Shown here: in pieces, positions 1 through 64,000 of the stretch
Layout of the letters: each line of letters opens with the position of its first letter
How positions within the stretch are numbered: the stretch's first letter is position 1
DNA from: Halichondria panicea
Taxonomy: Eukaryota; Porifera; Demospongiae; Suberitida; Halichondriidae
Assembly (NCBI RefSeq): GCF_963675165.1
Contig: NC_087382.1
Location: 1,426,001 to 1,490,000, forward strand
Length of the DNA stretch: 64,000 nucleotides
Reading direction: 5' to 3'
Program-made: the position numbers and the translations under genes
The notes under the pieces: model-generated
What the model saw: the letters and a program-made list of their open reading frames with translations, nothing else
Told to the model about the DNA's origin: nothing
Database searches by the model: none

Positions 1-3000
1 TCACTTGAATTGTTGGGAAATTCCAACACCTCGGTTGCACCATCAGGATAATCCAAGACCCTGTATTGCAATGCAGCAATGATAAACTGCAAGAGTTTGG
101 AATAAGAGAGTAGGACGAGTGTGCCTAGGGCAGCAACTGGGTTCCTGTTGGAGAGGAGCTTTGCAAATGAGTCAAAGTACTTGCTCAAAATGATTATTAA
201 GAACATCAAAAGAAACATGTAAGCAGGAAAGACAATCTGAAGGAGCACTTTTGCATGAGAGTTCATTCCATCATAAAAGCATGTCTCAATACCCAAGTCA
301 AGATTCACCCACGATATGAAAACTGTCAAAGGGTTATGAAAAGGTATGAAAATAGACTGATTTGCAGCTAATATATTAGTGTAGAAGATCAGCCCATGGA
401 TAGTGCCTGTTGCTATGGTAATGTTGAAAAGGAGAATGAATACAACTAGTACTATGCCTGCCAGGGCAAACGGGAGTAGCAGGAGAAGGTAAGAGTTTGA
501 ACAGAGTTCACATCTTGAAGTACCTAACACAAGACTGAGCCCTGGTTCACATTCTCCACACAAGACACCACTTCGATTGTAGGCACATTGTTCGTCAGGG
601 TTGCTTAGACTGATGTTGACTGGCTTTAGTACACAATAGTCAAATGTACAGTTACTAACAATATACCCACTTCCGTTAGTGGTATTAGTCACTCCTATCC
701 ATATGTTGTTATTGCTTTCCAGCTTTATGGTCCCATTTTCTTCAGAACAGTTTGTTATCTGCTGCAACAAGACTGGATCACAGTCACACTTGCACTCAAT
801 TGAGGACATAATTGGTTGGAGTCCAATAGGGCAATCACACTTTTGAAAAGATATGTTTAGAATTTGTTTTGAAATTCCCAAATTGTTGCATGGACCCTCA
901 GCATAGAGTTCCACTTGAGCAGAGCTGTCTTGTGAGAATACATTGTACTCTAATTCTGTGCACTGATTGCCAACTTCCTGTTGTGCTTGTCCTTCTTTGA
1001 GACGATCAACTCTACGGCTCTCAGTGATAACAGAACTGTGAATTATGGCATTATTCATTGGATTTCCAGCTTGGTCTACAGCCATAACACTGATTGTGAA
1101 TGTTGTCCTTTTCTAACAGAAATGGTCTGTTTGGTGGTGTTACACAACTTCACTCTGACAGCCTTCGAAGCTATCGATGAATAATGCACAGTATTGTTCA
1201 AGTACTCAAATCCGTTGTCTGATGAAGAGAGTTCGGCTGATACATCCACCGTACACCTGTCAAACAGACCTCCGTAAATATCTGCTCCTGACTTGAAAGC
1301 TGTGTTGTTAGTCAAAAAAGTGTTGCGATGATTAATTGATGTATTGTTCAAACACTTAAGTACTTCTTCATATGAAGACTGGGAAGTTTGCACTAAAGGT
1401 ATCAAAGTCTTAACAAAATTGATATCAAAACCATAGAGATCTTGAGTTTGAATGAAGCATTCTGTTTGTGTCAGATCTCCTGCAGTAGTTACATCCTCTC
1501 CTCTACACACACCACTCTCAGTACTGTCTGCCACAAATATCCCCCCTCCATACTGAGCCGTGTTATTGTGGATTTCCAGTATGACCAGCGTTTTACCAAG
1601 CTCTAGCTCCGAGTCCTGTTTCAAAATATATATCTTGGAACTTTGTTGTAGATACACTCCACTCCGCTATTGTTTGCCGAGTTTATTTTGATTTGGACGT
1701 AAGCGTGAGAAAAAGCCTTAATGTTTAAAGCGACTGCATAAATACCTCCTCCATTTTGAGCATCATTTCGATCTATAATACTCACAAACAGTACAGTCTC
1801 CATGTCACTACATGTACACGGGACAAAGTTATCATTAAATAAACAACCAGTAGTGACCTTCGAATCAAATTCAATTTCGCTTGAGTATGCATAAATCCCA
1901 CCACCATTGTGTGCTGTGTTGTGAGAAATCTCTATTGGATAGTGAACAAAGAGTGTACCCTCTCTCAGAAACACACCTCCTCCAACAGTAGCAGTATTGT
2001 TAGAAATGACCACTCCTTCTGCATTGATATAGATTTGACTCTGGACTGCTCTGATGGCTCCACCCTGCACACCACGATTGTTACTGAGAGTTGTGGGTCC
2101 ATTGAACTCCACTCGACTGCTTAGAGCATACACAGGGTTTACATTATTGCTAACATTGTTAACTCCCGTAAATGACAAGTTAGAATGCACTACGTAAAGG
2201 ATATTTTCACCATCTAAATTGTCAAATATGCTTGTATTAGTAATTATCAAAGTTGAGATAACAACCGTAATCACTCCATTATGCTGAGTAGCTCTGTTGT
2301 TTGTGACCACAGAGTCGGAAATGATCACAGTGCCATCAGCAACAAAAAACACTCCACCAAAGTCAGCACTGTTATTTTTAAACATGATTTTGGAGACGGA
2401 TATAGTTCCAGTATATACCAAAATCGCTCCACCAAGACTAGTTTCTCCATTATCAACTACAGCTTCATTATCTGTTATATTACAGCTCAAGATAGATGCA
2501 TCACCCGCGAAAAGTCCAATCGCTCCACCAGAGGTAGCCTTGTTGTTTGTTAGCTTGCTATCGGATATCAGTAACTCTCCAGTAAAAACCGAAATCGCTC
2601 CATCTGATCTACCAGCACTGTTGTACGCTAGCTCACTGTCGGAGATTGAGACACTCCCTCCCTGGATATTAATTGCTCCACCGTCAAGAATAGCATTATT
2701 GTTTAGTAGGGCACAGTTGGAAATGAACAAACTACTTTCGGAGGTGGAAATTGCTCCAGCACTTTCAGCAATATTATTTGTAAAGTTGCATAAACTGATA
2801 GTCACACTTGCAGAGTCCACTTCCACTGCTCCACCAAATCCAAATATAGCAGTGTTAGAATTAAACCTTGAATTTTTAATAACAGTTTGATTTGATATAA
2901 TATTATGAATTGCTCCACCACCATCATGAATAGCACTATTGCTCAGTAGTGTACAATTGGAAATGAACAAACCACTTCCAAAGGTGAAAATTGCTCCACC

Positions 3001-3867
3001 TGCTTTTTCAGCACTGTTGTACGCTAGCTCACTGTCGGAGATTGAGACACTCCCTCCCCGCCTATAAATTGCTCCACCGTCAAGAATAGCACTATTGTTT
3101 AGTAGCGCACAGTTGGAAATAAACAAACTACTTCCAAAGGTGATAATTGCTCCACCAAAATTTAATTGAGCAATATTATTTGTAAAGTTGCACCAACTGA
3201 TAGTCACACTTACAGAGTCCACTTCCACTGCTCCACCATATGCAGCAGTATTGGAATCGAATCTTGAATCATTAATAACAGTTTGATTTGATTCAATGTT
3301 CACTGCACCACCATCGTTACTGAAGAAGTCGCTCTTTTCAATGTGCACATTATCAGCTTCAACAGTCAATGCTCTGTCAGTGCTAGTGTTGTTCACAAAG
3401 AGAACTCGTTCAATCGTTACAGTTACTGTATGAGCGATCTCGAGTGTGCAAGCTTCCAACTTTAGCAATTTCAAGCCTACCAAATAGCATTGAGAAATGT
3501 ACATATAGCCTGAACTACTTTCATCACCTGCTCCAGTGAAATGCAAACCTTCGATACTCAATGCACTGATATTAGATAACAGCACTCTACCAGTTTTGAT
3601 AGTGGCATTTTGGCCAGCAATAGTCACCTCTCTGAAATTACAAATGTAAAGCATTTCACTTAATAAATGATCTCCAGGTAGAAAGCTCAAGGTGAGATTG
3701 TCTCCACCAGACAACAGGGCTGTTTGAACAAGCTGCTCGAGAGTGAAATAAGTTCCATTTTTGTAGTCATGACAAGAGTCAGCTGAATCCACTGGCACAA
3801 TGTGATAGTGCTCACTCCTGGTAACAGTAGCTAGGGTCAGTAGCAGCACCAACCAGCTGGTGTGCAT
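1..3867 (-). pseudogene. A-type beta-helix / multi-TM surface protein gene, 3' end outside window, two frame breaks
   Basis: The ATG at 3,867 opens a signal peptide (MHTSWLVLLLTLATVTRS). About 700 residues of right-handed beta-helix follow, with recurring GGAI, NNxA and FxNN motifs, as in Pmp-type repeats. Next come a Cys module (CTFDYC, then RSGVLCGECEPGLSL, about + strand 480-660) and the first membrane segments, which run off the window start. There are no introns. Aligned with the sister copy at 25,079-28,539, it lacks one C near 1,668 and one base near 1,100, so three reading-frame segments must be joined to cover the gene. Its ectodomain carries about 132 extra codons of rungs compared with that copy. 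It could be a pseudogene, or an intact gene carrying two assembly indels. The family assignment is firm; the disabled state is less so. Confidence 0.78.
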
Positions 3868-6291: not shown

Positions 6292-7943
6292 CTAGCTTAT
6301 TGACAAGAAGTCCACAGTTTGAATGTAACCACCAGTGTTTGTGTATCCTCCGGCTACAATGACCTCTCCACTAGGAAGTACTGAGCATGTGCAACTGTCT
6401 CGTGCAGTAGGCAGGTATCCCACTTTCACCCACCTACTGGTTTCAGGCTGGTAGAGGTGGATTGATGAACTTGGGTTGTCTCTGTCTTCCCATCCACCAA
6501 CGGCTAATAGTGACCTCTCAATACTGAGAGGAGCTGACAACACGAGTGGTACTTCTTGTAAGGTTTGCCAGAGAGTGGGTGTGTCCAGGTTGGAAAGGGC
6601 CTTTGCAATGAGTTTATTGAGGTTGACGTGGTGCACTGTCTTGGTTGCCCTCCCAGTGTAATCGATCCCTCCCATGAGGTAGAGGTTGTTTCCTATGAGA
6701 GTCGATTTCATTTCTGTTCGTGGGTTAGGTAGTGACTGAGCAATGTACCATTTTTTTGATGCCACGTCCAACACCTCCACAGAGGAGATACGTACTTCAT
6801 CATCATACCAACCAGCTACAATAATGTGGTTGTTGAAAGAGACAGCTATTGAGGAAGATCGAGAAATGTTCATTGGTGGATACGGATTAGTCCATTCTCC
6901 TGACTCAAAAACAGCAAGTTGGTTGATTCGTTTGTTGTTTCTTGGATCACGTCCTCCCACCAGCACTAGTCGATTAGCGAGTGATGTCATAGCAAAGTAC
7001 TTGGAAGTGTACTCTGGTAGTTTGGTCCATTGATCTTGCTCGAGCTTCATCACTGTACGATCTTTGCCTGCATGCCCTCCACCAACATACACCGTATTAC
7101 CGATAACAACACTCTGTACTGAAGTGCCCATCTTGATTGGCATGTCTTTTCCTCTTCTCCATTTCAGAGTGATTGGAGGTCTCAACTCTCTGGGAGGGGG
7201 ACCCTGAATAATGAATAAGTGTAATTAGGATAGTGTCTACTAACAAGCGAGTGACTTGTAGCAATAATTGTATGCACACTAAATCACTTTCTCTAATTAG
7301 TTTAAGAGGCGACGCCCACCAGTTCACTAGAATGTACTGTACGATTATAACAGACCAAAGCTTCTACTATAGCTCTGTAATATTATAGTGGTGCATTTTG
7401 TCTCACCTGTTTCTGCTGTTGAATGATGGCGGCTCTCCTGACCAGCTCAGCATCTTTGTGCTCAATTTGTTCCCTGTGTGCCTGTACAGGGGAACGTTGG
7501 TGGAAATATTCAAATCTCAGAACAGAGATGTGAATACTATGATCAGTGTAACAGTGGAGAATATAATTGTAACAGTGGACAATTCTACACTCATGACAGT
7601 ACTAGAGTATAAGAGTGTGTGCATACCTGTAAGAGAGCGTCCCTCTCAACTAGAGCAGCCTCTCTCTGGGAAATGAGAACAGTGATCCTTGACTCTTGTT
7701 CACTGAGTGGTCTGTCTTTGTCAGCAATCATACCATCTTTAGTGGCAGCATTAGCACGGACACTATTCAATATCTGTACCAAAATGTGGTACAGATATTG
7801 ACAAGATAGATAAATGACATGGATATAGGTTATCAACTTGATGGTTAGCCTTGACCCCTGGCCAGTCTGGCCAATCCATCTCCAATTGAACACTAGGTCG
7901 CCTCCTCGGTCTGGTATTGATTGTATCTGGGCATGTGCTGTGG

Positions 7944-12580: not shown

Positions 12581-12592
12581 TCACTCCTCATG

Positions 12593-15048: not shown

Positions 15049-15655
15049 AACTCTATATATACTGTGATTAACTGTGAAAAGGTGTATGTGTATATACACA
15101 CACGTCAATATACTGTACCATTATCAACATGAGTAATTACATAATAGATTACAGCTAATAACAAAGTCCAACGTATACGAAATTATGGTACTATATAAAG
15201 CACACATTTCTCTGGCTCCCCATGCTAACTGGACCAATGGGACGTACAATATGGTCAAGTATTGAGTGAGACCACAAACAAGATGTAACCATGCATGCAA
15301 TCAATAATATTTTGATTTCGGGAATTGAAAATTTCTTGCTATAATTATATTCAACTCTATATACTGTGATTAACTGTGAAAAGGTGCATGTGTATATACA
15401 CACACGTCAATATACTGTACCATTATCAACATGAGTAATTACATAAAGCTATATAGATCACAGCTAATAACAATTAAGGTCCGACGTATACAAAATTATG
15501 GTACTATAGAGCACACATTTCTCTGGCTCCCCATGCTATAACTGGACCAATGGGACGTACAATATGGTCAAGTATTGGTTGAAATCAGACAAACAAGATG
15601 TAACCATGCAATCAATAATATTTTGATTTCGGGAATTGACAATTTCTTGCTATAT
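15049..15655. repeat. Two tandem units of about 303 bp, decayed copies of the E-gene 5' end
   Basis: Units begin at about 15,049 and 15,351 (actctatata.actgtgatta). Each ends near a degenerate version of the mature N-terminus coding sequence (aactggaccaatgggacg, 15,228 and 15,540), whose intact form lies at about 15,850 in the gene. Copy 2 has a single unit (about 50,545-50,833). This is an array of 5'-end duplications that changed copy number after the module duplicated. Confidence 0.75.
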
Positions 15656-15775
15656 ACTCTGATTAACCATGAAAAGGTACTTTTATACGTAAAAAAATCT
15701 ACAGTGTACCATAAAATCAAAACCTATAAAAACTATAATTATAGATCAGCAAGGTCAGACGTACGAAACGTAATA

Positions 15776-18700
15776 ATGATCATCATGACTACTGTGGCAC
15801 AGTTTTCTTCGCTCATTCTTCTACTCTCTCTGACTCTGACCTCCCCCGCTAACTGCTGGACCAATGGGACGACAGTCGAGTATTGGGTGAGACCAGACAC
15901 AATGTCAGAGTGCCCCCACTCCATACCACCACACCAGTGTGTCACTATAACAGATCTGGTGACTAACTCCACAGACACAAGCATCAATGATGGTATGAGT
16001 ATCAATGTATTCTTCATAGCTGGGACTCATGTTCCAAAAACGAATGGTTGGATTGTTGTCGGAAATCCTTATTTAGATCAGGAAGTATCAGCAACTTTTG
16101 CAGCAATTTCAGATGGACAAAACCAACAAAATGCTATAATTGATTGTGAGTCAGGTCACCCAATTAGCTTCGTGTTTCTTCAACTTCTATCTTTAACTTT
16201 GAAAAACGTCGAGCTACAAAATTGTGGTTTTAAACTACACTTTAATATGAGGGGTAACTCAACTATTCTGGATGAAACCACATCATCAGTAGTAGCCATG
16301 GACGTACCCAAGCTGGTAATTGCTAACATCAATATCACTAGCAGCAGAGGAGCTGGCATGGTCATTATTCTGAAGAAATTCGACAAAAATGTCAACATTA
16401 ACCGTTTAATGCTAAATGAAATTGTCATACACGGTAGAAATCATACTGGAAATAAGTTTGTAGGCAACTTGCACGTAATGTTCAGTGCGTCTGAAAATAA
16501 TACACTTAAGAAACCCACGATTTTCTCAATAAAAAATTCTATATTTTCAAATGGAATTGGTAGGTGCTCAAAATTTGCAAATTGCTCTTCCGGTGGACTA
16601 ACAATTTCTATGGTAAACTTACATAATGTAAGTGTATTGATAAACAGGTGCAAATTTATAGGCAATAAAGCTTATAGTGGCGGTGGTATCGGATTGTTCA
16701 TAGACGAAGGTATTCATAGTTCGAATCACATTCATATCACCAAGTCAATATTTTCAAGGAATACAGCTGTTAGAAATGGTGGTGGGCTTGCAATAGAGAG
16801 TGATGATTTTCTCTATCACAATAATATAATGTTACATGTGAATATATCGGAAACAGTGTTCAGTTATAACTCGGCTGAATTTGGTGGTGCAGCATACACT
16901 TCATTTACACAGTCTTTTGACAATTGTACTTTCATAGGCAATGAAGCTAGACTTGGAGCAGCTGTCTATTCAGACGAGTATTATGATATCGACTTGAGCC
17001 AGTACCATCAACAAATCAGTAATTGCACATTCATACACAACACATGCAAGATAAATACAAATGAAGAGACAGAGGAAACTGGTACAATTCATGTCATAAT
17101 ACGTGATGATTATCTGTTCATAAAAGATGTTGAAATTATAGGCAATGATTGTAGAGGTATTTACGTTTATGACACGGACCTAGTACTGTCTGGAACAAGC
17201 GTAATTAACGGTAACCATGCTCACCAGTCAGATGGCGGGGCTATCCTGTTTGAATGTTCAACGGATAGTAATATACTGGTAGGAATTGATATACTGTCAC
17301 TCACTAGCCTCAGGATAATCAACAACACAGCAGCTGGTTATGGTGGTGGTATTGCAATTCGTAATTGTGAGGATGTTATTAATGAATGTATTTTTAGCCA
17401 ACCAACAGATAAAATTACAATTAGTATGAAACACAACACAGCGACGCAGGGAGGTGATGCAATTTATGGAGGCCAACTAGAAGACTGTAAATTGTGGGAC
17501 ATTGTTGATATCATGGAGAGAAATACATCATCAGCTGTTTCCTCTCCTCCCAACGAAGTGTGTATTTGCTCTGACGACTTCCCACAGAAACACACTTGTT
17601 CACACTTCATGCAACTAGACATTTATCCAGGACAGAGGTTCCATATTCCACTAGTGTGTGTCGGGCAGTACAACTATTCCTCCCCTTGCAAAGTACAAGC
17701 ACATTTACAGATGACAAGTTTCGCAAACATTGCTGAAGAAACAATCCTTCAAAACATCGCCAAAGAATGCAAGCAACTGTACTACTCAATAGAAACTCAA
17801 CAAACAAACTATACTGAAACACTGTATCTAACAATAGTCGGCCAGGAAGTACAGTCTTATTACGAATGGATCTTTCTAAATATTGAGATTAGAATTAAAG
17901 CATGTCCACCTGGTTTTATAACAAACTTCAATGCCAAAAAATGCATCTGTACAGAATATCTAGCGTCTAATGGAATCACATGCAACATTGACGATGAGCG
18001 ACTGCACAAGACGTCCTCCATGTGGGTTGGCACCTATTCAGAGGGCGTTGTTGTGCATCAAGTCTGTCCATTTGATTACTGTAAGAGCAACTTCACTAAA
18101 GTCGATCCCTTCAACCAGCAAGAACAGTGTGACTTTAATCGCAGTGGTGTACTGTGTGGAGCTTGTCGACCTGGGCTCAGTCTAGCCCTGGGTACATCGC
18201 AGTGTAAAGAGTGCTCTAATATCAACCTTCTCTTATTGATACTATTTGCACTGGCAGGAGTCGTCTTGGTTGTCCTTTTACTCAAATGTAACCTCACTGT
18301 TTCCACGGGAACTATCAATGGTCTCATCTTTTACGCCAACATCGTACGATCCACACAAACTGCTTTCTTTCCGTCCAACACTGATAACAAATTTGTCAGC
18401 ATTATCTCTGTCTTTATTGCCTGGTTGAACCTTGACCTGGGCATAGAAACATGTTTTGTGAATGGACTCAACACATACTATCGTACATGGCTACAATTTA
18501 TCTTTCCTCTGTACATTTGGACAATAGTAGGCCTGCTAATCTTAATCAGCCGCTACTCTATCAAAGTCTCTAAATGGACGGGCTCAAACACAGTATCAGT
18601 TCTAGCTACACTCTTCCTACTATCGTACGCTAAACTATTGAGGACTACTTTCGATACCTTTTCATCGACCACTCTCATCAATGTCAACGGTACGCCCACC

Positions 18701-48724: not shown

Positions 48725-50544
48725 TCACTCCTCATGCATGCATGCTTTGTATGTACATGCAATAATTATGTCATCATTTATTTTGATGCAATAACAACTG
48801 TTAATTATTATCAAAAATCAATGACTGCTATTAAGGGCGTATACGCCTATGGGGTAAAGTAACTTATATAGTGTGCATGTGTCTATTACTTTAACACACA
48901 TAGTGGCAGATCCAGGAATTTTGAGAGGGAGGTTCCAAAACTAAAAAAAAGGGTCATCACTTTTCCAAAACAATGAGCATTAGAGAGCCTGTGGACATAT
49001 CAATTGCAAGACATCAGCCTAGTAACTATGTACAGATCATGATCATTCAAGCTGAGTTAGCTAGTTGCTATAGCTAGTACGTTGACTACAGTGTGTTCTT
49101 GTGTGAAAGGGGGGTTTCAGGGAACCCATGGAACCTGTCTGGATCCGCCACTGCCACAATCAAAGCTACGGAGGGAGAGGATTAAATGTAAAACTGAATG
49201 GCAAAGCAAATAATTAGACACTTATACCCAACAAGCGAGAAATTCCATTGACCACACTTATAAACTATTGCTACGTTATTGCTATACAAGTAAATTAATT
49301 GTTTTGGAATTACCTCCCTCTCAAATTTCCTGGATCCGCCACTGTGTGGTATGTATACTTTTATAGAGCAAAGTGTAATAATTATGCAGCTGTGTAATCA
49401 AAACGCCTGGCTTGCAAGACTATATATAATTATATAGGCATGTACTAGCCGTATTATATATCAGTATACTTCCCTGATAATACGGCCTAGGGTCGTGTAC
49501 CTCTATACTGCTCTTATACCTCTTCAATTTACTGTAATAATTATGCTGATCTAGTTTGAATTAAGTGCATGCTCTATATAGGTATTAGAAAGTGGAACAC
49601 AATTAATTATCTTTTTCTCATAATTATTTCGATCACACAAGTACAAGACAACTGTCTTGTGTGATCAAAGAGAGAGCGTTAATGGACTTGGGAACAGACA
49701 TGTTATGGCTTGTATAATGAATATAATTATAGAGAGTGGATACTGATCGACACGTACCTCTTTTGGAGCACATGCACTCTCATCACTTTACATATGAAAG
49801 TATAACAGTACATGTAGCTATTGGTCTGCATGGCTTCTACGAGACTACCTCCCATGTTAGAACTATAATAAACATAGAGCCAGAGGAGGTCAACACACGA
49901 GTACCTCGATTAGGGATTAGGCTTGGTCACGTGCAAAATAACAGTAATTAAAATTAAAGTTGTGGTTGCAATTTTAGCCTAATTGAGGTACTCGTGTCGG
50001 ACCTCCGCTGACATTTATAGAGCACTGCCTTCTTAAATTAGTTGGGCGTGGCCCGTCCTAGCCTCAAACCTCCTCCTTATAAGGTGACATGTTTTCGCGG
50101 GTATTAATTTCCGCTATTTCAATTCTGTGTAGTCGCAGGTAATTGGCAGTGAATACTACTTGCAAAAATTATAGTTAATTTTACAACTTGAGTAGAATTT
50201 AATACCAGCAAAATAATCTAAAACAGTGAAATCGCAAACAAGTGAAAATATGTCACCTTATAGGCATATATAGGTCAATTTTTCCCAGTTTGGAGAAAAT
50301 TGGTTAGAATGAGCATTTTTTGAGAGACAAATAATACATTATTATGCTGTGATGTCAATCTTCTTACATAACGGTTCACGTGATAGGTACTTCCGCATTG
50401 ACATTGCAGTTGCAAGAACTCTGACCCTGCAAATCCCTGTAGATAATTATACCCTATACCATAATTATGCATGTATACAAAATGTATGTTCAATATATAA
50501 TCAATCAATATTTAGATTTGGGAAGGAAATGAATTGACAATTTA

Positions 50545-50833
50545 ACTCTATATATACTGTGATTAACTGTGAAAAGGTGTATGTGTATATACACACACGT
50601 CAATATACTGTACCATTATCAACATGAGTAATTACATAATAGATTACAGCTAATAACAAGGTCCAACGTATACGAAATTATGGTACTAGAGCACACATTT
50701 CTCTGGCTCCCCATGCTAACTGGACCAATGGGACGTACAATATGGTCAAGTATTGGTTGAAATCAGACAAACAAGATGTAACCATGCAATCAATAATATT
50801 TTGATTTCGGGAATTGACAATTTCTTGCTATAT
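50545..50833. repeat. Single unit of the E-gene 5' tandem repeat
   Basis: Equivalent of the two units at 15,049-15,655 in copy 1; one unit of about 303 bp is missing here. It contains the same decayed aactggaccaatgggacg segment. Confidence 0.7.
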
Positions 50834-50953
50834 ACTCTGATTAACCATGAAAAGGTACTTTTATACGTAAAAAAATCTACAGTGTACCATAAAATCAAAA
50901 CCTATAAAAACTATAATTATAGACCAGCAAGGTCAGACGTACGAAACGTAATA

Positions 50954-53900
50954 ATGATCATCATGACTACTGTGGCACAGTTTTCTTCGCTCATTCTTCT
51001 ACTCTCTCTGACTCTGACCTCCCCCGCTAACTGCTGGACCAATGGGACGACAGTCGAGTATTGGGTGAGACCAGACACAATGTCAGAGTGCCCCCACTCC
51101 ATACCACCACACCAGTGTGTCACTATAACAGATCTGGTGACTAACTCCACAGACACAAGCATCAATGATGGTATGAGTATCAATGTATTCTTCATAGCTG
51201 GGACTCATGTTCCAAAAACGAATGGTTGGATTGTTGTCGGAAATCCTTATTTAGATCAGGAAGTATCAGCAACTGTTGCAGCAATTTCAGATGGACAAAA
51301 CCAACAAAATGTTATAATTGATTGTGAGTCAGGTCACCCAATTAGCTTCGTGTTTCTTCAACTTCTATCTTTAACTTTGAAAAACGTCGAGCTACAAAAT
51401 TGTGGTTTTAAACTACACTTTAATACGAGGGGTAACTCAACTATTCTGGATGAAACCACATCATCAGTAGTAGCCATGGACGTACCCGAGCTGGTAATTG
51501 CTAACATCAATATCACTAACAGCAGAGGAGCTGGCATGGTCATTATTCTGAAGAAATTCGACAAAAATGTCAACATTAACCGTTTAATGCTAAATGAAAT
51601 TGTCATACACGGTAGAAATCATACTGGAAATAAGTTTGTAGGCAACTTGCACGTAATGTTCAGTGCGTCTGAAAATAATACACTTAAGAAACCCACGATT
51701 TTCTCAATAAAAAATTCTATATTTTCAAATGGAATTGGTAGGTGCTCAAAATTTGCAAATTGCTCTTCCGGTGGACTAACAATTTCTATGGTAAACTTAC
51801 ATAATGTAAGTGTATTGATAAACAGGTGCAAATTTATAGGCAATAAAGCTTATAGTGGCGGTGGTATCGGATTGTTCATAGACGAAGGTATTCATAGTTC
51901 GAATCACATTCATATCACCAAGTCAATATTTTCAAGGAATACAGCTGTTAGAAATGGTGGTGGGCTTGCAATAGAGAGTGATGATTTTCTGTATCACAAT
52001 AATATAATGTTACATGTGAATATATCGGAAACAGTGTTCAGTTATAACTCGGCTGAATTTGGTGGTGCAGCATACACTTCATTTACACAGTCTTTTGACA
52101 ATTGTACTTTCATAGGCAATGAAGCTAGACTTGGAGCAGCTGTCTATTCAGACGAGTATTATGATATCGACTTGAGCCAGTACCATCAACAAATCAGTAA
52201 TTGCACATTCATACACAACACATGCAAGATAAATACAAATGAAGAGACAAAGGAAACTGGTACAATTCATGTCATAATACGTGATGATTATCTGTTCATA
52301 AAAGATGTTGAAATTATAGGCAATGATTGTAGAGGTATTTACGTTTATGACACGGACCTAGTACTGTCTGGAACAAGCGTAATTAACGGTAACCATGCTC
52401 ACCAGTCAGATGGCGGGGCTATCCTGTTTGAATGTTCAACGGATAGTAATATACTGGTAGGAATTGATATACTGTCACTCACTAGCCTCAGGATAATCAA
52501 CAACACAGCAGCTGGTTATGGTGGTGGTATTGCAATTCGTAATTGTGAGGATGTTATTAATGAATGTATTTTTAGCCAACCAACAGATAAAATAACAATT
52601 AGTATGAAACACAACACAGCGACGCAGGGAGGTGATGCAATTTATGGAGGCCAACTAGAAGACTGTAAATTGTGGGACATTGTTGATATCATGGAGAGAA
52701 ATACATCATCAGCTGTTTCCTCTCCTCCCAACGAAGTGTGTATTTGCTCTGACGACTTCCCACAGAAACACACTTGTTCACACTTCATGCAACTAGACAT
52801 TTATCCAGGACAGAGGTTCCATATTCCACTAGTGTGTGTTGGGCAGTACAACTATTCCTCCCCTTGCAAAGTACAAGCACATTTACAGATGACAAGTTTC
52901 GCAAACATTGCTGAAGAAACAATCCTTCAAAACATCGCCAAAGAATGCAAGCAACTGTACTACTCAATAGAAACTCAACAAACAAACTATACTGAAACAC
53001 TGTATCTAACAATAGTCGGCCAGGAAGTACAGTCTTATTACGAATGGATCTTTCTAAATATTGAGATTAGAATTAAAGCATGTCCACCTGGTTTTATAAC
53101 AAACTTCAATGCCAAAAAATGCATCTGTACAGAATATCTAGCGTCTAATGGAATCACATGCAACATTGACGATGAGCGACTGCACAAGACGTCCTCCATG
53201 TGGGTTGGCACCTATTCAGAGGGCGTTGTTGTGCATCAAGTCTGTCCATTTGATTACTGTAAGAGCAACTTCACTAAAGTCGATCCCTTCAACCAGCAAG
53301 AACAGTGTGACTTTAATCGCAGTGGTGTACTGTGTGGAGCTTGTCGACCTGGGCTCAGTCTAGCCCTGGGTACATCGCAGTGTAAAGAGTGCTCTAATAT
53401 CAACCTTCTCTTATTGATACTATTTGCACTGGCAGGAGTCGTCTTGGTTGTCCTTTTACTCAAATGTAACCTCACTGTTTCCACGGGAACTATCAATGGT
53501 CTCATCTTTTACGCCAACATCGTACGATCCACACAAACTGCTTTCTTTCCGTCCAACACTGATAACAAATTTGTCAGCATTATCTCTGTCTTTATTGCCT
53601 GGTTGAACCTTGACCTGGGCATAGAAACATGTTTTGTGAATGGACTCAACACATACTATCGTACATGGCTACAATTTATCTTTCCTCTGTACATTTGGAC
53701 AATAGTAGGCCTGCTAATCTTAATCAGCCGCTACTCTATCAAAGTCTCTAAATGGACGGGCTCAAACACAGTATCAGTTCTAGCTACACTCTTCCTACTA
53801 TCGTACGCTAAACTATTGAGGACTACTTTCGATACCTTTTCATCGACCACTCTCATCAATGTCAACGGTACGCCCATCACCCTCTGGCTGCTCGATGGCC

Positions 53901-54622
53901 GCTACACATTCCTCGAGTGGCCGCACAGCTTGCTCTTTGCAGCTGGCCTGTTCATATTATTAGCACACATACTGCCATTCACTATCCTGTTATTAATGGC
54001 CCCGATTCTGCAGCGATACACACACTACAAGTTATTACGATGGGTAAACAAGTTAAAGCCTCTACTGGATGCTTATCAAGGTCCTTACGGAGTCAAGTCT
54101 CGCTATTGGACTGGACTACTGCTGCTAGGTAGGCTCGTTATACTAACAGCTGTGTCTTTAAATGTGTCTGGAAAACAAGCCATCAATTTGCTAGTGATAA
54201 TCATAGTATTGTCTATTTTAAGGATAATATTGATGGCATTCGGAATAACAATTAAGCTCTATACAAGCAAACTATCAAACTTCCTGGAGCTATTTTTTCT
54301 GGCAAATCTTCTGCTACTAACTGCCACATCACTGTTTCTGCAGTCAAACCAGACTGATAAAATCAGCGGACAAAGTATAACAATCTGTTGTATGGTGGGT
54401 AGTGCATTCGTTATGTGTGGCCTCATCTTAGCCTATCACTGCTACGTTATGTGTCAGAGAATAGAAGCCATCAAGCGGCTAACATCAAGAGTTGTTTCCT
54501 CTCTAAAAGGGCCTCGGAATCGAGCACTAACTAACGATGACATCATATGTGTCCCCCCACATAGCACACCCCCCACAGTCACAGAGGTTGATTTGAGGGA
54601 ACTGCTACTAGAGGATAACTAA
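50954..54622 (+). CDS. E-type beta-helix / multi-TM surface protein, copy 2, intact
   Basis: 1,222 residues from the ATG at 50,954, with the same length and domain order as 15,776-19,444: signal peptide, beta-helix, Cys module, about nine hydrophobic segments, tail with DLRELL. By line-by-line reading, the two coding regions differ at seven nonsynonymous and three synonymous positions. Five of the seven fall in one 245-bp stretch at the start of the beta-helix (copy 1 coordinates 16,097-16,341): F/V, A/V, M/T, K/E and S/N. The remaining two are E/K in the later helix and T/I in a loop between membrane segments. No lesions. Confidence 0.9.
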   Translation: MIIMTTVAQFSSLILLLSLTLTSPANCWTNGTTVEYWVRPDTMSECPHSIPPHQCVTITDLVTNSTDTSINDGMSINVFFIAGTHVPKTNGWIVVGNPYLDQEVSATVAAISDGQNQQNVIIDCESGHPISFVFLQLLSLTLKNVELQNCGFKLHFNTRGNSTILDETTSSVVAMDVPELVIANINITNSRGAGMVIILKKFDKNVNINRLMLNEIVIHGRNHTGNKFVGNLHVMFSASENNTLKKPTIFSIKNSIFSNGIGRCSKFANCSSGGLTISMVNLHNVSVLINRCKFIGNKAYSGGGIGLFIDEGIHSSNHIHITKSIFSRNTAVRNGGGLAIESDDFLYHNNIMLHVNISETVFSYNSAEFGGAAYTSFTQSFDNCTFIGNEARLGAAVYSDEYYDIDLSQYHQQISNCTFIHNTCKINTNEETKETGTIHVIIRDDYLFIKDVEIIGNDCRGIYVYDTDLVLSGTSVINGNHAHQSDGGAILFECSTDSNILVGIDILSLTSLRIINNTAAGYGGGIAIRNCEDVINECIFSQPTDKITISMKHNTATQGGDAIYGGQLEDCKLWDIVDIMERNTSSAVSSPPNEVCICSDDFPQKHTCSHFMQLDIYPGQRFHIPLVCVGQYNYSSPCKVQAHLQMTSFANIAEETILQNIAKECKQLYYSIETQQTNYTETLYLTIVGQEVQSYYEWIFLNIEIRIKACPPGFITNFNAKKCICTEYLASNGITCNIDDERLHKTSSMWVGTYSEGVVVHQVCPFDYCKSNFTKVDPFNQQEQCDFNRSGVLCGACRPGLSLALGTSQCKECSNINLLLLILFALAGVVLVVLLLKCNLTVSTGTINGLIFYANIVRSTQTAFFPSNTDNKFVSIISVFIAWLNLDLGIETCFVNGLNTYYRTWLQFIFPLYIWTIVGLLILISRYSIKVSKWTGSNTVSVLATLFLLSYAKLLRTTFDTFSSTTLINVNGTPITLWLLDGRYTFLEWPHSLLFAAGLFILLAHILPFTILLLMAPILQRYTHYKLLRWVNKLKPLLDAYQGPYGVKSRYWTGLLLLGRLVILTAVSLNVSGKQAINLLVIIIVLSILRIILMAFGITIKLYTSKLSNFLELFFLANLLLLTATSLFLQSNQTDKISGQSITICCMVGSAFVMCGLILAYHCYVMCQRIEAIKRLTSRVVSSLKGPRNRALTNDDIICVPPHSTPPTVTEVDLRELLLEDN

Positions 54623-55188
54623 TCATTGACTAACATTGCACGCACATGCAGAGATAGATAAAACACTTAATTTAGCTAGTGTATTGGCAAAAAATAAGTA
54701 CCCTCACAATTGTCACACACACAGTGTACTCTCACCTTCTGACACAATAACACGATTTACATGTTTTGAGAAATTGATTTATTTGGGGACACGTATAGAT
54801 CTATATACATGCATATACAGGCTCTTACTAAGGGGCAAATAGTTATATGAGAGAGCAGCTGCTTCAGAACACTGTTGCACATTCATTTGCTGTCATACAA
54901 CCAAACAATATCACTTGTATTGTCAACTCATATTAATCAATGGAACAGTTAGTCTCATGTTGCTTGGTCTGGATCTCACCCAAAATACTAGATTAGATAT
55001 TTTTGTCTGTTGGCTATAATTATAATTGAGAGTTTGACGTGTGTTATCTTGTGGACAGTAATTAGCTACAGTCACATCACAAATCATAATAACAGCTAGC
55101 AGAGAATAATTAAAACTAGTAAAACAGCAATGAATATTGTAATCAGCAATTATATCATTCTAATCTAAGTGTGTACCTCAGCTACAGT
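54623..55188. other. Convergent 3' intergenic region, copy 2
   Basis: Nearly identical to 19,445-20,009, with no gene seen. Confidence 0.6.
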
Positions 55189-58100
55189 TTAGACTTTATT
55201 ATGTATGGGACCAATTTCTGTGCATGTAACAGCAGGACGATGGTTGACTCTTGTAGGGGGAGGGGCTGGTCTGTAGTCCTCTGTGGTGAGGGGGGCTAGC
55301 TCATCCATGTAGGGTAATATCATCTGGTCTGGCCTCGTGGCTGGTCTGATGATGGGAGGAGTGATGTAACAATCAGGGTCAGCTTCTTCCATGACTCCAT
55401 CATGATCAGTGTAAGGTGGGTTCAAGGCATCTCTTTGTTCATAGTCGTCTACTGCTTTGAGTAATTCATTATCATCATTTTCATCGGCTACCAGCTGCTG
55501 ATACATTTCCCGACCATTGCTAGCTCGTCTGACTACAACATTAGCTCCTAAATTCCTTATGGTGTCTTCTATCTTCAGCCATGTATTAATATTCTTGAGT
55601 ACGAATTGGTAAAAATGGTAGCAGAGGGTTATTGCAAAGATGACAAAGGATATAGCCATCGAAGTATTGGCTAGGGCTGACTGATTTTTTCTGGTATCTT
55701 TGACAAAGGAGGTGCCAAATGCTAGACAAACAATATTGAGTAGATAAAGAGTTTCGAGGGAATCACGGATTTTGTTTTTGTACAAACGATTGTTCAGTAA
55801 TTTCCAGCTGATCAGTCCAACTGATAGAACACCAGCTGATAGAACAGGGAGAGAAGTGTCCAAAGCCAGAGCAGTTATTATATTATGAGCGATAAAAGAA
55901 AATAGGAGCAGTCCCACCCAGTAGCGATGTTTGGGCGTGAATGGAGCATAGTATGCATCCATGAAGCCAATGTACTTCGTGTTCTTAGTCCATTTCATGA
56001 GTTTCCATTTTGAGCAGCGAGGAAACCATTGTCCAAAGAAGAGCACCACAGTGAACACTACACCAGAAATGAGGATTATGGCGGCAAAAACAAACCGAGG
56101 GATGTGACCGGAAGTGAAATATTGCACATTGCCGTCATACATCCAAACTATATCACTTGTACCATCAGGATAATCCAAGACCCTGTGTTGCAGTGCAGCA
56201 ATGATAAACCGTAAGAGTTTGGAATAAGAGAGTAGGACGAGTGTGCCTAGGGCAGCAACTGGATTCCTGTTGGAGAGGAGCTTTGCAAAAGAGTCAAAGT
56301 ACTTGCTCACAATGATTATTAAGAACATCAGAAGAAACAGGTAAGCAGGAAAGACAATCTGAAGGAGCACTTTTGCATGAGAGTTCATTCCATCATAAAA
56401 GCATGTCTCAATACCCAAGTCAAGATTCACCCACGATATGAAAACTGTCAAAGGGTTATGAAAAGGTATGAAAATAGACTGATTTGCAGCTAATATATTA
56501 GTGTAGAAGATCAGCCCATGGATAGTGCCTGTTGCTACGGTAATGTTGAAAACGAGAATGAATACAACTAGTACTATGCCTGCCAGGGCAAACGGAAGTA
56601 GCAGGAGAAGGTAAGAGTTTGAGCAGAGTTCACATCGTGATGTACCTAACACAAGACTCAGTCCTGGTTCACATTCTCCACACAAGACACCACTTCGATT
56701 GTAGTCACACTGTTCGTCAGGGTTGCTTAGACTGATGTTGACTGGCTTTAGTACACAATAGTCAAATGTACAGTTACTAACAACATACCCACTTCCGTTA
56801 GTGGTATTAGTCACTCCTATCCATATGTTGTTATTGCTTTCCAGCTTTATGGTCCCATTTTCTTCAGAACAGTTTGTTATCTGATATTCTTGTTGCAAGA
56901 CTGGATCACAGTCACACTTACACTCAATTGAGGACTGAATTGGTTGGAGTCCAATAGAGCAATCACATTTTTGAAAATATATGTTTAGAATTTGTCTTGA
57001 AATTCCCAAATTGTTGCATGGACCCTCAGCATAGAGTTCCACTTGAGCAGAGCTGTCTTGTGAGAATACATTGTACTCTAATTCTGTGCACTGATTGCTA
57101 ACTTCTTGTTGTGCTTGTCCTTCTTTGAGACGACCAACTCCACTCTCAGTGATAACAAAACTGTGAATTGTGGCATTAATCATTGGATTTCCAGCTTGGT
57201 CTACAGCCATAATACTGATTGTGAATGCTTGTCCCTTTCTAACAGAAATGGTTTGCTTGGTGGTGTTACACAACTTCACTCTTACAGCCTTCGAAGCTAT
57301 CGATGAATAATGCACAGTATTGTTCAAGTACTCAAATCCATTGTCTGATGAAGAAAGTTCGGCTGATACATCCACCGTACACCTGTCCAACAGACCTCCG
57401 TAAATATCTGCTCCTGACTGGGAAGCTGTGTTGTTGGTCAAAAAAGTGTTGCAATAATTGATTGACTTATTATTTAAACACTTAACTTCTTCAGATGAAG
57501 ACGGAATACCTTGGAGCAAATTTAGCACGATCTTAATAAAATTGATATCAAAACCATACAGATTTAGAGTTTGAATGAAGCATTCTGTTTGTGTCAGATC
57601 TCCTGCAGTAGTTACATCCTCTCCTCTACACACACCACTCTCAGTACTGTCTGCCACAAATATCCCCCCTCCATATTGAGCCGTGTTATTCTGAATTTCT
57701 AGTATGACCAGCGTTTTACCAAGCTCTAGCTCCAAGTCCTGTTTCAGAATATATATCCTGGAGCTTTGCTGTAGATACATTCCACCTCCGCTATTGTTTG
57801 CTGAGTTTGACTTGATTTGGACGTGAGCGTGAGAAAAAGCCTTAATGTTTGAAGCGACTGCATAAATACCTCCTCCATTTTGTGCATCATTTCGATCTAT
57901 AATACTCTCAAACAATACAGCTTTCATGTCACTACATGTACACAGGACAAACTGACGATTAAGTAAACAACCAGTAGTGACCTTCGAATCAAATTCAATT
58001 TCGCTTGAGTATGCATAAATCCCACCACCATTGTGTGCTTTGTTATGAGAAATCTCTATTGGATAGTGAACAAAGAGTGTGCTCTCTCTCAGAAACACAC

Positions 58101-59637
58101 CTCCTCCAACAGTAGCTATATTGTTAGAAATGACCACTCCTTCTGCATTGATATAGATTTGACTCTGAACTGCTCTGATGGCTCCACCCTGCACACCACG
58201 ATTGTTACTGAGAGTTGTGGGTCCATTGAACTCCACTCGACTGCTTAGAGCATACACAGGGTTTACATTATTGCTAACATTGTTAACTCCCGTAAATGAC
58301 AAGTTAGAATGCACTACGTAAATGATATTTTCACCCTCTAAATTGTCAAATATGCTTGTATTAGCATTTATTAAAGTTGAGATAACAACCGCAATCACTC
58401 CATCTTGTTGGGTGGCTCTGTTATTTGTGAGCAGAGAGTCGGAAATGATCACAGTGCCATCAGCAACGAAAAATACTCCACCAATGTCAGCACTGTTATT
58501 TTTAAACATGACTTTGGAGACAGATATAGTTCCAGTATATACCAAAATCGCTCCACCAGAGGGTGCCTTGTTGTTTGTTAGCTTGCTATTGGATATCAGT
58601 AACTCTCCATTCAAAACCAAAATCGCTCCACCTGATCTTTCAGCACTGTTGTACGCTAGCTCACTGTCGGAGATTGAGACACTCCCAAACCAGATATTAA
58701 TTGCTCCACCGTCACGAATAGCACTATTGTTTAGTAGCACACAGTTGGAAATGAACAAATTAGTTCTGAAGGTGGAAATGGCTCCACCATATTCAGCGAT
58801 ATTATCCATAAAGTTACAGAAACTGATTGAAACATTAACTGCCGAAATACCGCCACCACTATAATAAAAATCACTGGCATAAATCGCTCCACCGCTGTAA
58901 TAAACGCTATTATTTGTAAAGTTGCACCAACTGATAGTCACACTTGAAGAGGCCACCGCCACTGCTGCACCATATGTAGTACCAGTATTGGAAGTGAATC
59001 TTGAATCATTAATAACAGTTTGCTTTGAGTAAATGTAAACGGCACCACCATTGTTATTAAAGAAATCACTCTTTTCAATGCACACAGTATCAGCTTTAAC
59101 ATACAATGCTCTGTCAGTGCTAGTGTCGTTTACAAAGAGAACTTGTTCAATTCTCACAGTTACCACATGAGTGATCGTGGTGATCCAGAGTGTACAAGAT
59201 TCCAACTTTAGCAATTTCAAGTCTACCAAAGAGCATTCATCGATATATAATTCTTGAGAAATGTAGCCTGAACTTTTTTTATCACCTGCTCCTGTGAAAT
59301 TCAAACCTTCAATACTCAATGCACGGATATTAGATAAATACACTGCTCTACCAGTTGTGTTGGCATTGATAGTGGCATTTTGGCCAGCAATAATCACCTC
59401 TCTGAAATTACAAATGTAAAGCATTTCACTTAATAAATGATCACCAGACAGAAAGCTCAAGGTGAGTTTGTCTCCACCAGACAACAGGTCTGTTTGAACA
59501 AGCTGCTCGAGAGTGAAACAAGTTCCATTTTGGTAGTCATTACACGAGTCAGTTGAATCCACTGGCACAATGTGATAGTGCTCACTCCTGGTAACAGTAG
59601 CTAGGGTCAGTAGCAGCACCACCCAGGTGCAGTGCAT
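55189..59637 (-). CDS. B-type beta-helix / multi-TM surface protein, copy 2, intact
   Basis: Single exon, 1,482 residues, ATG at 59,637 preceded by the conserved leader. Signal peptide about 1-18 (ATVTRS/EHYH). Beta-helix about 60-700, with FTNNSVYYSGGAIYA, FMDNIAEYGGAIS and AYNSAERSGGAI rungs. A Cys-rich stalk follows, with the module CTFDYC to RSGVLCGECEPGLSL at about 955-1,000. About nine hydrophobic segments lie at about 1,005-1,350, including DAYYAPFTPKHRYWVGLLL. The cytosolic tail of about 130 residues is acidic then proline-rich, with a YQQL (YxxPhi) signal and APLTTEDYRPAPPP. It is the only B- or A-type gene in the window that is both complete and intact, so it is the best reference for the subfamily. 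It converges with the E gene at 50,954. Ligand and function are unknown. Confidence 0.9.
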   Translation of the reverse strand: MHCTWVVLLLTLATVTRSEHYHIVPVDSTDSCNDYQNGTCFTLEQLVQTDLLSGGDKLTLSFLSGDHLLSEMLYICNFREVIIAGQNATINANTTGRAVYLSNIRALSIEGLNFTGAGDKKSSGYISQELYIDECSLVDLKLLKLESCTLWITTITHVVTVRIEQVLFVNDTSTDRALYVKADTVCIEKSDFFNNNGGAVYIYSKQTVINDSRFTSNTGTTYGAAVAVASSSVTISWCNFTNNSVYYSGGAIYASDFYYSGGGISAVNVSISFCNFMDNIAEYGGAISTFRTNLFISNCVLLNNSAIRDGGAINIWFGSVSISDSELAYNSAERSGGAILVLNGELLISNSKLTNNKAPSGGAILVYTGTISVSKVMFKNNSADIGGVFFVADGTVIISDSLLTNNRATQQDGVIAVVISTLINANTSIFDNLEGENIIYVVHSNLSFTGVNNVSNNVNPVYALSSRVEFNGPTTLSNNRGVQGGAIRAVQSQIYINAEGVVISNNIATVGGGVFLRESTLFVHYPIEISHNKAHNGGGIYAYSSEIEFDSKVTTGCLLNRQFVLCTCSDMKAVLFESIIDRNDAQNGGGIYAVASNIKAFSHAHVQIKSNSANNSGGGMYLQQSSRIYILKQDLELELGKTLVILEIQNNTAQYGGGIFVADSTESGVCRGEDVTTAGDLTQTECFIQTLNLYGFDINFIKIVLNLLQGIPSSSEEVKCLNNKSINYCNTFLTNNTASQSGADIYGGLLDRCTVDVSAELSSSDNGFEYLNNTVHYSSIASKAVRVKLCNTTKQTISVRKGQAFTISIMAVDQAGNPMINATIHSFVITESGVGRLKEGQAQQEVSNQCTELEYNVFSQDSSAQVELYAEGPCNNLGISRQILNIYFQKCDCSIGLQPIQSSIECKCDCDPVLQQEYQITNCSEENGTIKLESNNNIWIGVTNTTNGSGYVVSNCTFDYCVLKPVNISLSNPDEQCDYNRSGVLCGECEPGLSLVLGTSRCELCSNSYLLLLLPFALAGIVLVVFILVFNITVATGTIHGLIFYTNILAANQSIFIPFHNPLTVFISWVNLDLGIETCFYDGMNSHAKVLLQIVFPAYLFLLMFLIIIVSKYFDSFAKLLSNRNPVAALGTLVLLSYSKLLRFIIAALQHRVLDYPDGTSDIVWMYDGNVQYFTSGHIPRFVFAAIILISGVVFTVVLFFGQWFPRCSKWKLMKWTKNTKYIGFMDAYYAPFTPKHRYWVGLLLFSFIAHNIITALALDTSLPVLSAGVLSVGLISWKLLNNRLYKNKIRDSLETLYLLNIVCLAFGTSFVKDTRKNQSALANTSMAISFVIFAITLCYHFYQFVLKNINTWLKIEDTIRNLGANVVVRRASNGREMYQQLVADENDDNELLKAVDDYEQRDALNPPYTDHDGVMEEADPDCYITPPIIRPATRPDQMILPYMDELAPLTTEDYRPAPPPTRVNHRPAVTCTEIGPIHNKV

Positions 59638-60150
59638 GTTCTCTCCGATACTATAAGATTACAAGCTAATCCGGCAGTGTCAGAATAGTGCTATTGCTTC
59701 TTCTATATACTGTATATCATCTATAGAGTGGAATAAGATAGCGGTCACCAGCAATTGATATTATGAGGCTCAAATTCTTATCAGTCATTACACTTAGTTT
59801 GCACAGTTATAACTTACCTAATCGATTTCCCTTTTCAGCTTACAAGATCCAAACACAGTCTCACATGCACGTGTGAATACAGTAGTGGAGTATAGAGGTA
59901 GGACTATATATTAGGCCAAAGGGTATAGTATCACTGCATGCAGTAGAGCTGTCATCAGATACAAGTCCAAAGCACACACAAAAAATTCCTAATAGGATTA
60001 CATGTATAGAGATGTTGTTATAGTTCAGACAACCCAATTAGTAGCTGCTTCCCAAGGGAGAAGTGCATGTATATAGTGTAATACGTTTACATGCTTATAG
60101 TATACATACTATATAGATCTACGACCTGTGTTTTTAAGCACACTCCCATG
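59638..60150. other. B-type upstream region, copy 2
   Basis: Matches 24,461-24,973 and starts with the 18-base leader. No gene seen. Confidence 0.5.
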
Positions 60151-60255
60151 CATATTTCCCTACAATCTGCTATATTTCCTTACAATCTGCCGTATTTCCT
60201 TACAATCTGCCATATTTCCTTACAATCTGCTATATTTCCCTACAATCTGCCATAT
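60151..60255. repeat. 20-bp minisatellite, copy 2
   Basis: Same array as 24,974-25,078, with one base difference visible in the second unit. Followed by unrelated DNA at 60,256. Confidence 0.88.
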
Positions 60256-62664: not shown

Positions 62665-64000
62665 TTACTCTTTCACGACATCGATGACAGTGTGCGTAAC
62701 TTTGGGTGCATTGTCTTGAGGAGGGGGAGGGGCTGGTCTGTAGTCCTCCGTAGTGAGAGGGGCTAGCACGTCCAGGGCAGGCTCTCTCAGCTGTTCCGGC
62801 CTTGTGGCTGGTCGGATGATGGGAGGAGTGATGTAACGATCAGGATCAGCTTCTTCCATGACTCCATTAGTGTACGGATCATATCTGTCCACGTTTGTCC
62901 AGGTTTCTTTGTGGTTTTTCTTCTCCAGTTCCAGTTTGCGAACTCGTGGAATCATTTTTCTTAGTCTGAGTGCATTTTGCTGCCTCTGCAGAACAGGAAC
63001 TTTCTTCAGTATGTACTCGTAAAAGTGGTAGCAAACTATCACCACAAACAAAATAAAAGTCACTGCCATTGAAATGTTGGATATTATGTCTTGATTCCCA
63101 TTGATGTTTCCTATGTAGAGGGTGCCATATGCTAGAATTGCAAGATTGAGGAAAAAGAGTGTTTCCAGTAAATCATTGAATCGTATTTTGTACACTGCAT
63201 AATTCTGCAATTTGAAAATATTAAGCCCAACACTTATAGATCCAGCTGATAGTACGGGGAGAGAAGTGTCTAAAGCCAAAGCAGTTATTAGATTATGAGC
63301 GATCAAAGAAAATAGGAGCAGTCCCACCCAGTAGCGATGCTTGGGAGTGAATGGAGCATGGTATGCATCCATGAAACCATTGTAGTATGTGTTCTTAGTC
63401 CATATCATGAGTTTCCGTTTTGAACAGCGAGGAAACCATTGTCCAAAGAAGAGCAGTACAGTGAACAATATACCAGAGATGAGGATTATGGCGGCAAAAA
63501 CAAACCGAGGGATGTGACCGAGAGTGAAATATTGCACATTGCCGTCATACAACCAAACTATATCACTTGAATTGTTGGGAAAATCCAACACCTCGGTTGC
63601 ACCATCAAGATAATCCAAGACCCTGTATTGCAGTGCAGCAATGATAAACTGCAAGAGTTTGGAATAAGAGAGTAGGACGAGTGTGCCTAGGGCAGCAACT
63701 GGGTTCCTGTTGGAGAGGAGCTTTGCAAATGAGTCAAAGTACTTGCTCAAAATGATTATTAAGAACATCAAAAGAAACAGGTAAGCAGGAAAGACAATCT
63801 GAAGGAGCACTTTTGCATGAGAGTTCATTCCATCATAAAAGCATGTCTCAATACCCAAGTCAAGATTCACCCACGATATGAAAACTGTCAAAGGGTTATG
63901 AAAAGGTATGAAAATCGACTGATTTGCAGCTAATATATTAGTGTAGAAGATCAGCCCATGGATAGTGCCTGTTGCTATGGTAATGCTGAAAAGGAGAATG
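62665..64000 (-). CDS. A-type beta-helix / multi-TM surface protein, C-terminal part only (N-terminus beyond window)
   Basis: The open frame runs in from the right edge and ends at 62,665 (VIDVVKE). It covers most of the membrane region (FISWVNLDLGIETCFYDGMN, DAYHAPFTPKHRYWVGLLLF, FLNLAILAYGT) and a tail of about 95 residues with LAPLTTEDYRPAPPPP, the same tail motif as the B-type gene although the juxtamembrane tail differs. No lesion is seen in the visible part. It is closest to the copies at 1-3,867 and 25,079-28,539 (shared VLDFP insertion absent from B type). Whether the ectodomain is intact cannot be judged here. Confidence 0.88.
   Translation of the reverse strand, partial: ILLFSITIATGTIHGLIFYTNILAANQSIFIPFHNPLTVFISWVNLDLGIETCFYDGMNSHAKVLLQIVFPAYLFLLMFLIIILSKYFDSFAKLLSNRNPVAALGTLVLLSYSKLLQFIIAALQYRVLDYLDGATEVLDFPNNSSDIVWLYDGNVQYFTLGHIPRFVFAAIILISGILFTVLLFFGQWFPRCSKRKLMIWTKNTYYNGFMDAYHAPFTPKHRYWVGLLLFSLIAHNLITALALDTSLPVLSAGSISVGLNIFKLQNYAVYKIRFNDLLETLFFLNLAILAYGTLYIGNINGNQDIISNISMAVTFILFVVIVCYHFYEYILKKVPVLQRQQNALRLRKMIPRVRKLELEKKNHKETWTNVDRYDPYTNGVMEEADPDRYITPPIIRPATRPEQLREPALDVLAPLTTEDYRPAPPPPQDNAPKVTHTVIDVVKE

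Follow-up and report, generated by a model that had tools for sequence, protein, structure and literature searches.

The 64-kb window analysed here (C6:1426001-1490000, i.e. part of contig C6 of the 131-Mb, 39-contig genome of the sponge Halichondria panicea) carries members of a large gene family that, judged from the sequence, encodes surface receptors of an unusual build. The proteins start with a signal-peptide-like sequence, followed by an ectodomain that is likely a Pmp-type beta-helix, a cysteine (Cys) module, a membrane body of about nine segments and a tail predicted to be cytosolic. We propose, as the leading but tentative reading, that these animal-encoded proteins serve recognition with uptake or signalling.

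Seven related genes had been claimed for the window by the original prediction, which was made from the DNA alone, and this count was borne out, but only three of the seven are complete (Table 1): two of type A on the forward strand (A1 and A2) and one of type B on the reverse strand (B1). A further type B gene, B2, is tail-less, and three type B copies are broken. In the copy at the left end of the window the first frame stops at position 1621 and a different frame is open again by 1085; in the copy at the right end (62665-64000), the frame changes and stops are found past the window edge. The signal-peptide-like start was found in the complete copies, as expected for a shared signal peptide.

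Table 1 Features of the 64-kb window. Positions refer to the window; residue numbers are those of the respective protein.
Feature	Position	Strand	Description
Type A gene A1	15776-19444	+	complete, 1222 amino acids from ATG
Type A gene A2	50954-54622	+	complete, 1222 amino acids from ATG
A2 Cys module and membrane body	53204-54433	+	
A2 cytosolic tail (predicted)	54434-54619	+	ends LRELLLEDN
Type B gene B1	55189-59637	-	complete, 1482 amino acids
B1 Pmp-type beta-helix region	57568-59340	-	residues ~100-690, most rungs of 25-26 residues
B1 domain between helix and Cys module	56812-57537	-	residues 701-942; beta-sandwich look, by eye only
B1 Cys module	56614-56811	-	residues 943-1008; weak likeness to Pfam DUF7630
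B1 membrane body	55603-56613	-	residues 1009-1345; nine segments, best fit on family alignment
B1 cytosolic tail (predicted)	55192-55602	-	residues 1346-1482; LREPALD-type motif diverged
Type B gene B2	20396-24460	-	1354 amino acids, open frame, ends past last membrane segment, tail lost
Broken type B copy	1-3867	-	open stretches 1621-3867 and 3-1085; runs past window edge
Broken type B copy	25043-28468	-	pieces 25043-25831 and 26513-28468; stops present
Type B C-terminal part	62665-64000	-	open within window; tail with LREPALDVLAPL
Duplicated unit, first copy	15299-25078	.	convergent A + B pair
Duplicated unit, second copy	50499-60255	.	convergent A + B pair
Transposase-like gene	30899-32821	-	640 amino acids; DDE_1, Psq and weak Tc5-type DNA-binding matches; between the two A + B units
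Reverse-transcriptase fragment	34666-35589	-	part of a retroelement; RVT_1, E 5.5e-31
Kelch-repeat open frame	6292-7185	-	297 amino acids; Kelch_1, E 2.4e-24
Open frame	37755-38507	-	250 amino acids; no Pfam match below E 0.02

The Pfam repeat Chlam_PMP matched B1 (E 7.5e-12), A2 (E 4.6e-6) and the piece 1621-3867 of a broken copy (E 4.2e-20). Among 21 full-length members searched with Pfam at E 0.01, Chlam_PMP was found in 13, Beta_helix in three and DUF7630 in two; from NCBIfam, the POMP repeat was likewise present in 13 of the 21 and rhombotarget A in one. B1 has 12 GG-type motifs and A2 has six, compared to means of 0.6 and 0.3 in shuffled sequences, and none of 300 shuffles reached these counts. 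The A2 count with a looser, FxxN-type pattern was not above chance, since 60 of 300 shuffles reached it. In type B proteins the GG motifs are mostly spaced by 25-26 residues or multiples thereof; type A proteins have fewer of them. A full-length profile compared with solved structures gave beta-helix alpha-galactosidases (E 0.0022-0.0033) and a phage depolymerase (E 0.32), and for B1 no solved relative was found at E 1. The AlphaFold2 model of A2 was poor, with a mean predicted local distance difference test (pLDDT) of 37, although residues 201-360, modelled as strands, had block means of 50-79; according to the accessible text of PMC11795689, AlphaFold2 can be confidently wrong on repeat proteins. 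Foldseek searches with this model gave 146 matches; to judge from their names, the best 50 consist mostly of lyases, epimerases and tailspikes of the beta-helix type. The Pmp-like beta-helix that had been predicted is likely from the sequence, but the predicted structures are too poor to confirm the fold. A member with 693 amino acids, L047 (C14:4833700-4839150), has a signal-peptide-like start, the lower ectodomain, the membrane body and an LREPALD tail; a Pmp repeat was not visible by eye, so the head can be absent.

A further domain separates the repeat from the Cys module. Seven cysteines of the Cys module are invariant across 20 aligned members, in agreement with the shared module described before. 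When 20 diverse membrane halves were aligned, the mean column identity was 44% and 28 columns were invariant, of which 10 belong to the Cys module, 17 to the body and one to the tail. A motif DAY..P..K.RYW had been reported as conserved in the body; in the 20 members its D, its W and the G after the W are indeed invariant, but the remainder is only a majority consensus. Averaged hydropathy revealed ten candidate segments, two of them overlapping. An arrangement of nine segments with the N-terminus outside and the tail inside fits the positive charges of the loops, and nine is the best fit of hydropathy and charge together; a membrane region of about nine hydrophobic segments downstream of the ectodomain is thus present as predicted. 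When the 20 membrane halves were scanned with Pfam at a threshold of E 10, at which HMMER filters drop most matches above E ~0.1, only DUF7630 recurred (14 of 20, over the Cys module) and no other family matched more than two of the 20. DUF7630 (PF24633) is under its cut-off in the window copies and its best E in the 20 membrane halves was 2.3e-4; four places in the genome are over the cut-off, three of which coincide with matches of the family motif SGVLCGxC. A family C G protein-coupled receptor (GPCR) body was considered and rejected: 7tm_3 was found in none of the 21 members (E 0.01) and in none of the 20 membrane halves (E 10), and hhalign to six of the sponge's own 7tm_3 proteins gave a probability of only 4.5 (E 0.009) over 37 columns, restricted to the Cys module. 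The fungal-type TRP/Flc family (PF06011) gave no match in the 21 members or in the genome, the control genomes being equally silent. Pattern searches with the membrane half gave 21 matches in a viral and 25 in a prokaryote collection, none of which was confirmed; this is not proof of absence. When the membrane profile was compared with solved structures, the sole matches were one endosomal protein and two RNA-polymerase-subunit sequences, which had E values of 0.79-8.5 and covered 24-25 profile positions within the Cys module. An AlphaFold2 model of the membrane half, built from seven window rows, had no usable fold (mean pLDDT 37, predicted template modelling score 0.22).

The tail that follows the last membrane segment is predicted to be cytosolic. 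Short tails end in LREPLL-type motifs, and many long tails have LREPALDxLxP followed by a proline-rich end. The pattern used to search for the tail motif was found in 33 of 54 sequences, where shuffled sequences gave a mean of 0.24 and a maximum of 2. It is absent from B1 and from seven B-like loci (L007, L010-L015).

The motif WxNLDxGI has 200 exact matches in the genome and none in a reversed control, which establishes a multi-copy and not a single-copy family. SGVLCGxC gave 151 exact matches (21 + 130; control 0) and the looser RxGxLCGxC 310, compared to 21 in the control; among the RxGxLCGxC matches listed, 11 identical ones on C3 resemble an unrelated repeat. These counts take in broken copies, and placement is known for the first 100 matches of each long motif list. 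Searched with B1, the genome gave at least 94 matches (32 of 619 first-look candidates scored), and with A2 at least 40 (36 of 519 scored). Other arrays are located at C11:5.35-5.41 Mb, C14:4.82-4.85 Mb, C4:2.80-2.83 Mb and C3:5.03-5.12 Mb. For comparison, 51 family loci (L001-L051) were retrieved. Each of the 16 B-like loci L001-L016, which are the best matches and hence a biased sample, has one long open frame of 1446-1673 amino acids. Loci L034-L049 were picked by hand from the motif lists and all 16 contain family sequence; the reading frame stays open across the membrane body and the tail in eight (L034, L042, L043, L044, L045, L047, L048 and L049; the start of L044 may be missing from the piece retrieved) and changes or stops in six (L036, L037, L039, L040, L041 and L046), with L035 and L038 unclassified. 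Identity among members is as low as 27% over the full length and 32% in the membrane half.

That the genes are intronless, as had been proposed, is supported by the single open frames and by the broken copies, in which the aligned pieces abut without an intron-sized gap. No such gap was found inside the aligned parts of 15 loci compared, the 5' part being unmatched in several (e.g. L025, L027, L030, L032, L033, L035, L038, L041 and L047). The genome also contains 123 matches to family C GPCR (7tm_3) genes, many of which appear as single open frames of ~700-990 amino acids, in tandem arrays (C4:7234835-7298586, C3:343380-434796 and C17:4936603-4953806). Since many family C GPCR genes, too, appear as single-frame genes in arrays, intronlessness is a habit of this genome and not special to the receptor family.

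The A + B unit of 9.8 kb, which is present twice in the window, is 98.7% identical over 9783 alignment columns. A1 and A2 differ in 10 of 1222 codons, 3 of these differences being silent, and B1 and B2 differ in 57 nucleotides across 1340 codons, of which 22 were scored silent and 35 not. Further A copies are located on the same contig at C6:1386599, 1414333, 1405556 and 1269923, with 99, 90, 88 and 82% protein identity, respectively; only the one at C6:1386599 is without an internal stop. Behind the copies at C6:1386599 and 1414333 lies a B copy on the opposite strand, and behind the copy at C6:1269923 a family motif, again on the opposite strand. The tandem arrays, the duplicated unit, the broken copies and the discordant C-terminal blocks described below give good support to the birth-and-death cluster that had been suggested.

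The ratio of non-synonymous to synonymous substitutions (dN/dS) was determined by domain for ten close B genes out of 18 aligned B sequences, gap-trimmed and in B1 residue numbering. It amounted to 0.52 for residues 20-190, 0.82 for helix residues 191-420, 0.49 for residues 421-700, 0.28 in the next domain (701-942), 0.17 in the Cys module (943-1008) and 0.48 in the membrane part (1009-1345). Without trimming, the highest and lowest domains were the same, with 0.82 and 0.16, and nine more diverged B genes gave 0.50 and 0.36 in helix parts and 0.27 in the membrane part. Selection is purifying overall and weakest in the distal helix, which also has most of the changes in length. For helix residues 191-420, dN exceeded dS in 13 of 45 pairs (untrimmed). 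One 60-residue window of the alignment reached a dN/dS of 1.20 on 41 columns. The alignment has 544 gap columns, 347 of which fall into B1 residues 150-399. Another 136 lie at or beyond residue 1350, where the missing tail of B2 contributes to the number. Rung-core positions vary less than other positions, a difference that 38 of 5000 random register shifts reached. The C-terminal blocks look exchanged, having by sequence a history different from that of the ectodomains: B1 and L003 share 93% base identity at residues 421-800, 95% at 1001-1250 and 58% at 1281-1360, and B1 and L014 share 64, 83 and 83%, respectively. Residues ~1260-1400, comprising the last membrane segments and the start of the tail, exist in three diverged versions in 15 sequences. 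These versions are spread over two ectodomain groups, a distribution suggestive of recombination or gene conversion.

Anatomy and copy number were read from the sequence; a recognition or adhesion role, as in the original prediction, is what we infer from them, and ligand, coupling and outcome are part of the following model. The beta-helix would form a long, rigid stalk in which the rung cores are preserved, with the other rung positions and the rung number free to vary, and it may meet an extracellular ligand, most likely glycans or proteins on microbial or particle surfaces. The Cys module would serve as the coupling between stalk and nine-pass body; the tail would pass the complex to sorting, endocytic or signalling machinery, resulting in recognition with uptake or signalling. 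Array duplication and exchange of C-terminal blocks could keep yielding new combinations of head, body and tail. The sequence of recognition head, coupling module and tail is modelled by analogy with the chlamydial and Trichomonas Pmp proteins. Beyond this, the roughly 200 or more intronless genes may constitute a repertoire built from exchangeable parts, whose heads are joined to different C-terminal blocks through recombination between arrays. Such a repertoire would be an early-animal, germline-diversified means of discriminating between microbes, or of recognising self; this we regard as rather doubtful.

Several results weigh against recognition with uptake or signalling. The tail motif is missing from 21 of the 54 sequences, B1 included; part of these are broken or have another tail. 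The classical dileucine sorting signal is [DE]xxxL[LI], and most tail motifs do not fit this pattern. All Foldseek matches of the poor A2 model had E values above 0.001, the best being 7.8e-3. Positive selection was looked for and not found in any large domain, dN/dS being below 1 in each; selection for diversity in recognition is thus unsupported, and relaxed constraint is possible. A hot spot of variation at rung positions +5 to +7 did not survive either: it was reached by 422 of 5000 shifts once the choice of window was allowed for, an earlier figure of 3 in 5000 having come from positions picked after seeing the data. The overall variance by register was not significant (2373 of 5000 shifts).

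Alternatively, the nine-pass body might be the main functional unit, a ligand-gated channel or chemosensory receptor with the helix as sensor. The 17 of 28 invariant columns that fall into the membrane body, with polar residues among them, would fit this idea, and so would Dictyostelium GrlP, GrlQ and GrlR, which, in the available part of PMC1885808, combine a Pmp-like region with a seven-pass receptor. However, none of the 20 membrane halves matched a Pfam channel or GPCR family in the scan at E 10 described above, and the hhalign comparison with the sponge's own family C GPCRs did not go beyond the low-probability match in the Cys module (4.5, E 0.009); we consider a channel or chemosensor a rather doubtful explanation. 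Self/non-self recognition or cell-cell adhesion, in which members on adjacent cells bind one another, or else a partner that is polymorphic, and the arrays hold haplotype diversity, would account for a large clustered family with broken copies, for convergent A + B pairs duplicated as a unit and for mosaic-looking genes, but the near-identity of A1 and A2 and dN/dS values below 1 speak against it and make it unlikely. A surface enzyme or transporter, whose beta-helix binds or cuts polysaccharides and feeds a nine-pass carrier, is suggested by the weak profile and fold matches, which are, by name, largely polysaccharide-active beta-helix proteins. These matches may reflect the shared beta-helix form, with a best profile E of 0.0022 and no fold match below 0.001, no catalytic site was identified and constraint is lowest in the distal helix, so that this explanation is quite improbable. 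That the array copies are in part assembly artefacts, i.e. haplotypes strung together in tandem, which would make the family smaller than counted, is prompted by nearly identical units 35 kb apart and is the least probable of all, given that the copies follow one another along a single contig, together with relatives that have 62-98% protein identity, that copies are found on many other contigs and that members diverge to the identities given above.

The other features of the window, among them parts of mobile elements, are included in Table 1. Elsewhere in the genome, the nuclear-receptor domain zf-C4 gave only three matches, all at C12:278756-296496, indicating very few nuclear receptors. 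This DNA-binding domain is not known outside animals, and sponges carry very few such receptors, a picture that fits a sponge genome.

How early animals without antibodies distinguish food, symbionts, pathogens and self is an open question, for which a family of this size supplies concrete genes: the scaffold is most variable towards the outside, the body is conserved and the tail, predicted to be cytosolic, has a recurrent motif. A literature search, with subscription papers mostly outside its scope, found among the papers listed no account of this receptor family or of its combination of domains. The parts are partly known, namely the Pmp repeat and the DUF7630-like module; the nine-pass body matched no Pfam family and would merit a family name of its own. 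In the chlamydial Pmp proteins (PF02415/TIGR01376), FxxN and GGA(I/L/V) repeats are predicted to form beta-helical rungs, and a structural study puts forward a model in which these motifs are buried and ligands are contacted by loops that extend on one face (PMC10715098, as far as its accessible text goes). The FxxN/GGA repeat region is shared with the family described here, but the autotransporter barrel was unmatched in the 21 members by Pfam, and a helical multi-pass body is found instead. Two Pmp proteins of Trichomonas vaginalis are reported, in the portion of PMC6701047 at hand, to raise adherence of the parasite and to carry endocytic tail motifs. Like the sponge proteins they belong to an expanded eukaryotic family that combines Pmp repeats with a membrane anchor and with motifs in the cytosolic tail, but they are described there with one membrane segment instead of about nine, and with NPx[YWF] and an acidic cluster in their tails, whereas LREPLL or LREPALD recurs here (NPx[YWF] was not searched). 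The massive, lineage-specific growth of a recognition family has a parallel in the sponge SRCR expansion, going by the part of PMC10855680 available; the ectodomain is a different one, and SRCR is absent among the Pfam matches of our family. The overall architecture has a near-precedent in the Dictyostelium proteins GrlP, GrlQ and GrlR, in which, according to the same excerpt of PMC1885808, a Pmp-homologous N-terminal region sits on a polytopic receptor body; this is a seven-pass body of family 3 (C), to which the sponge body does not belong by Pfam or hhalign. In sum, GrlP, GrlQ and GrlR and the Trichomonas Pmp proteins are the closest precedents, and the sponge family is a member of neither.

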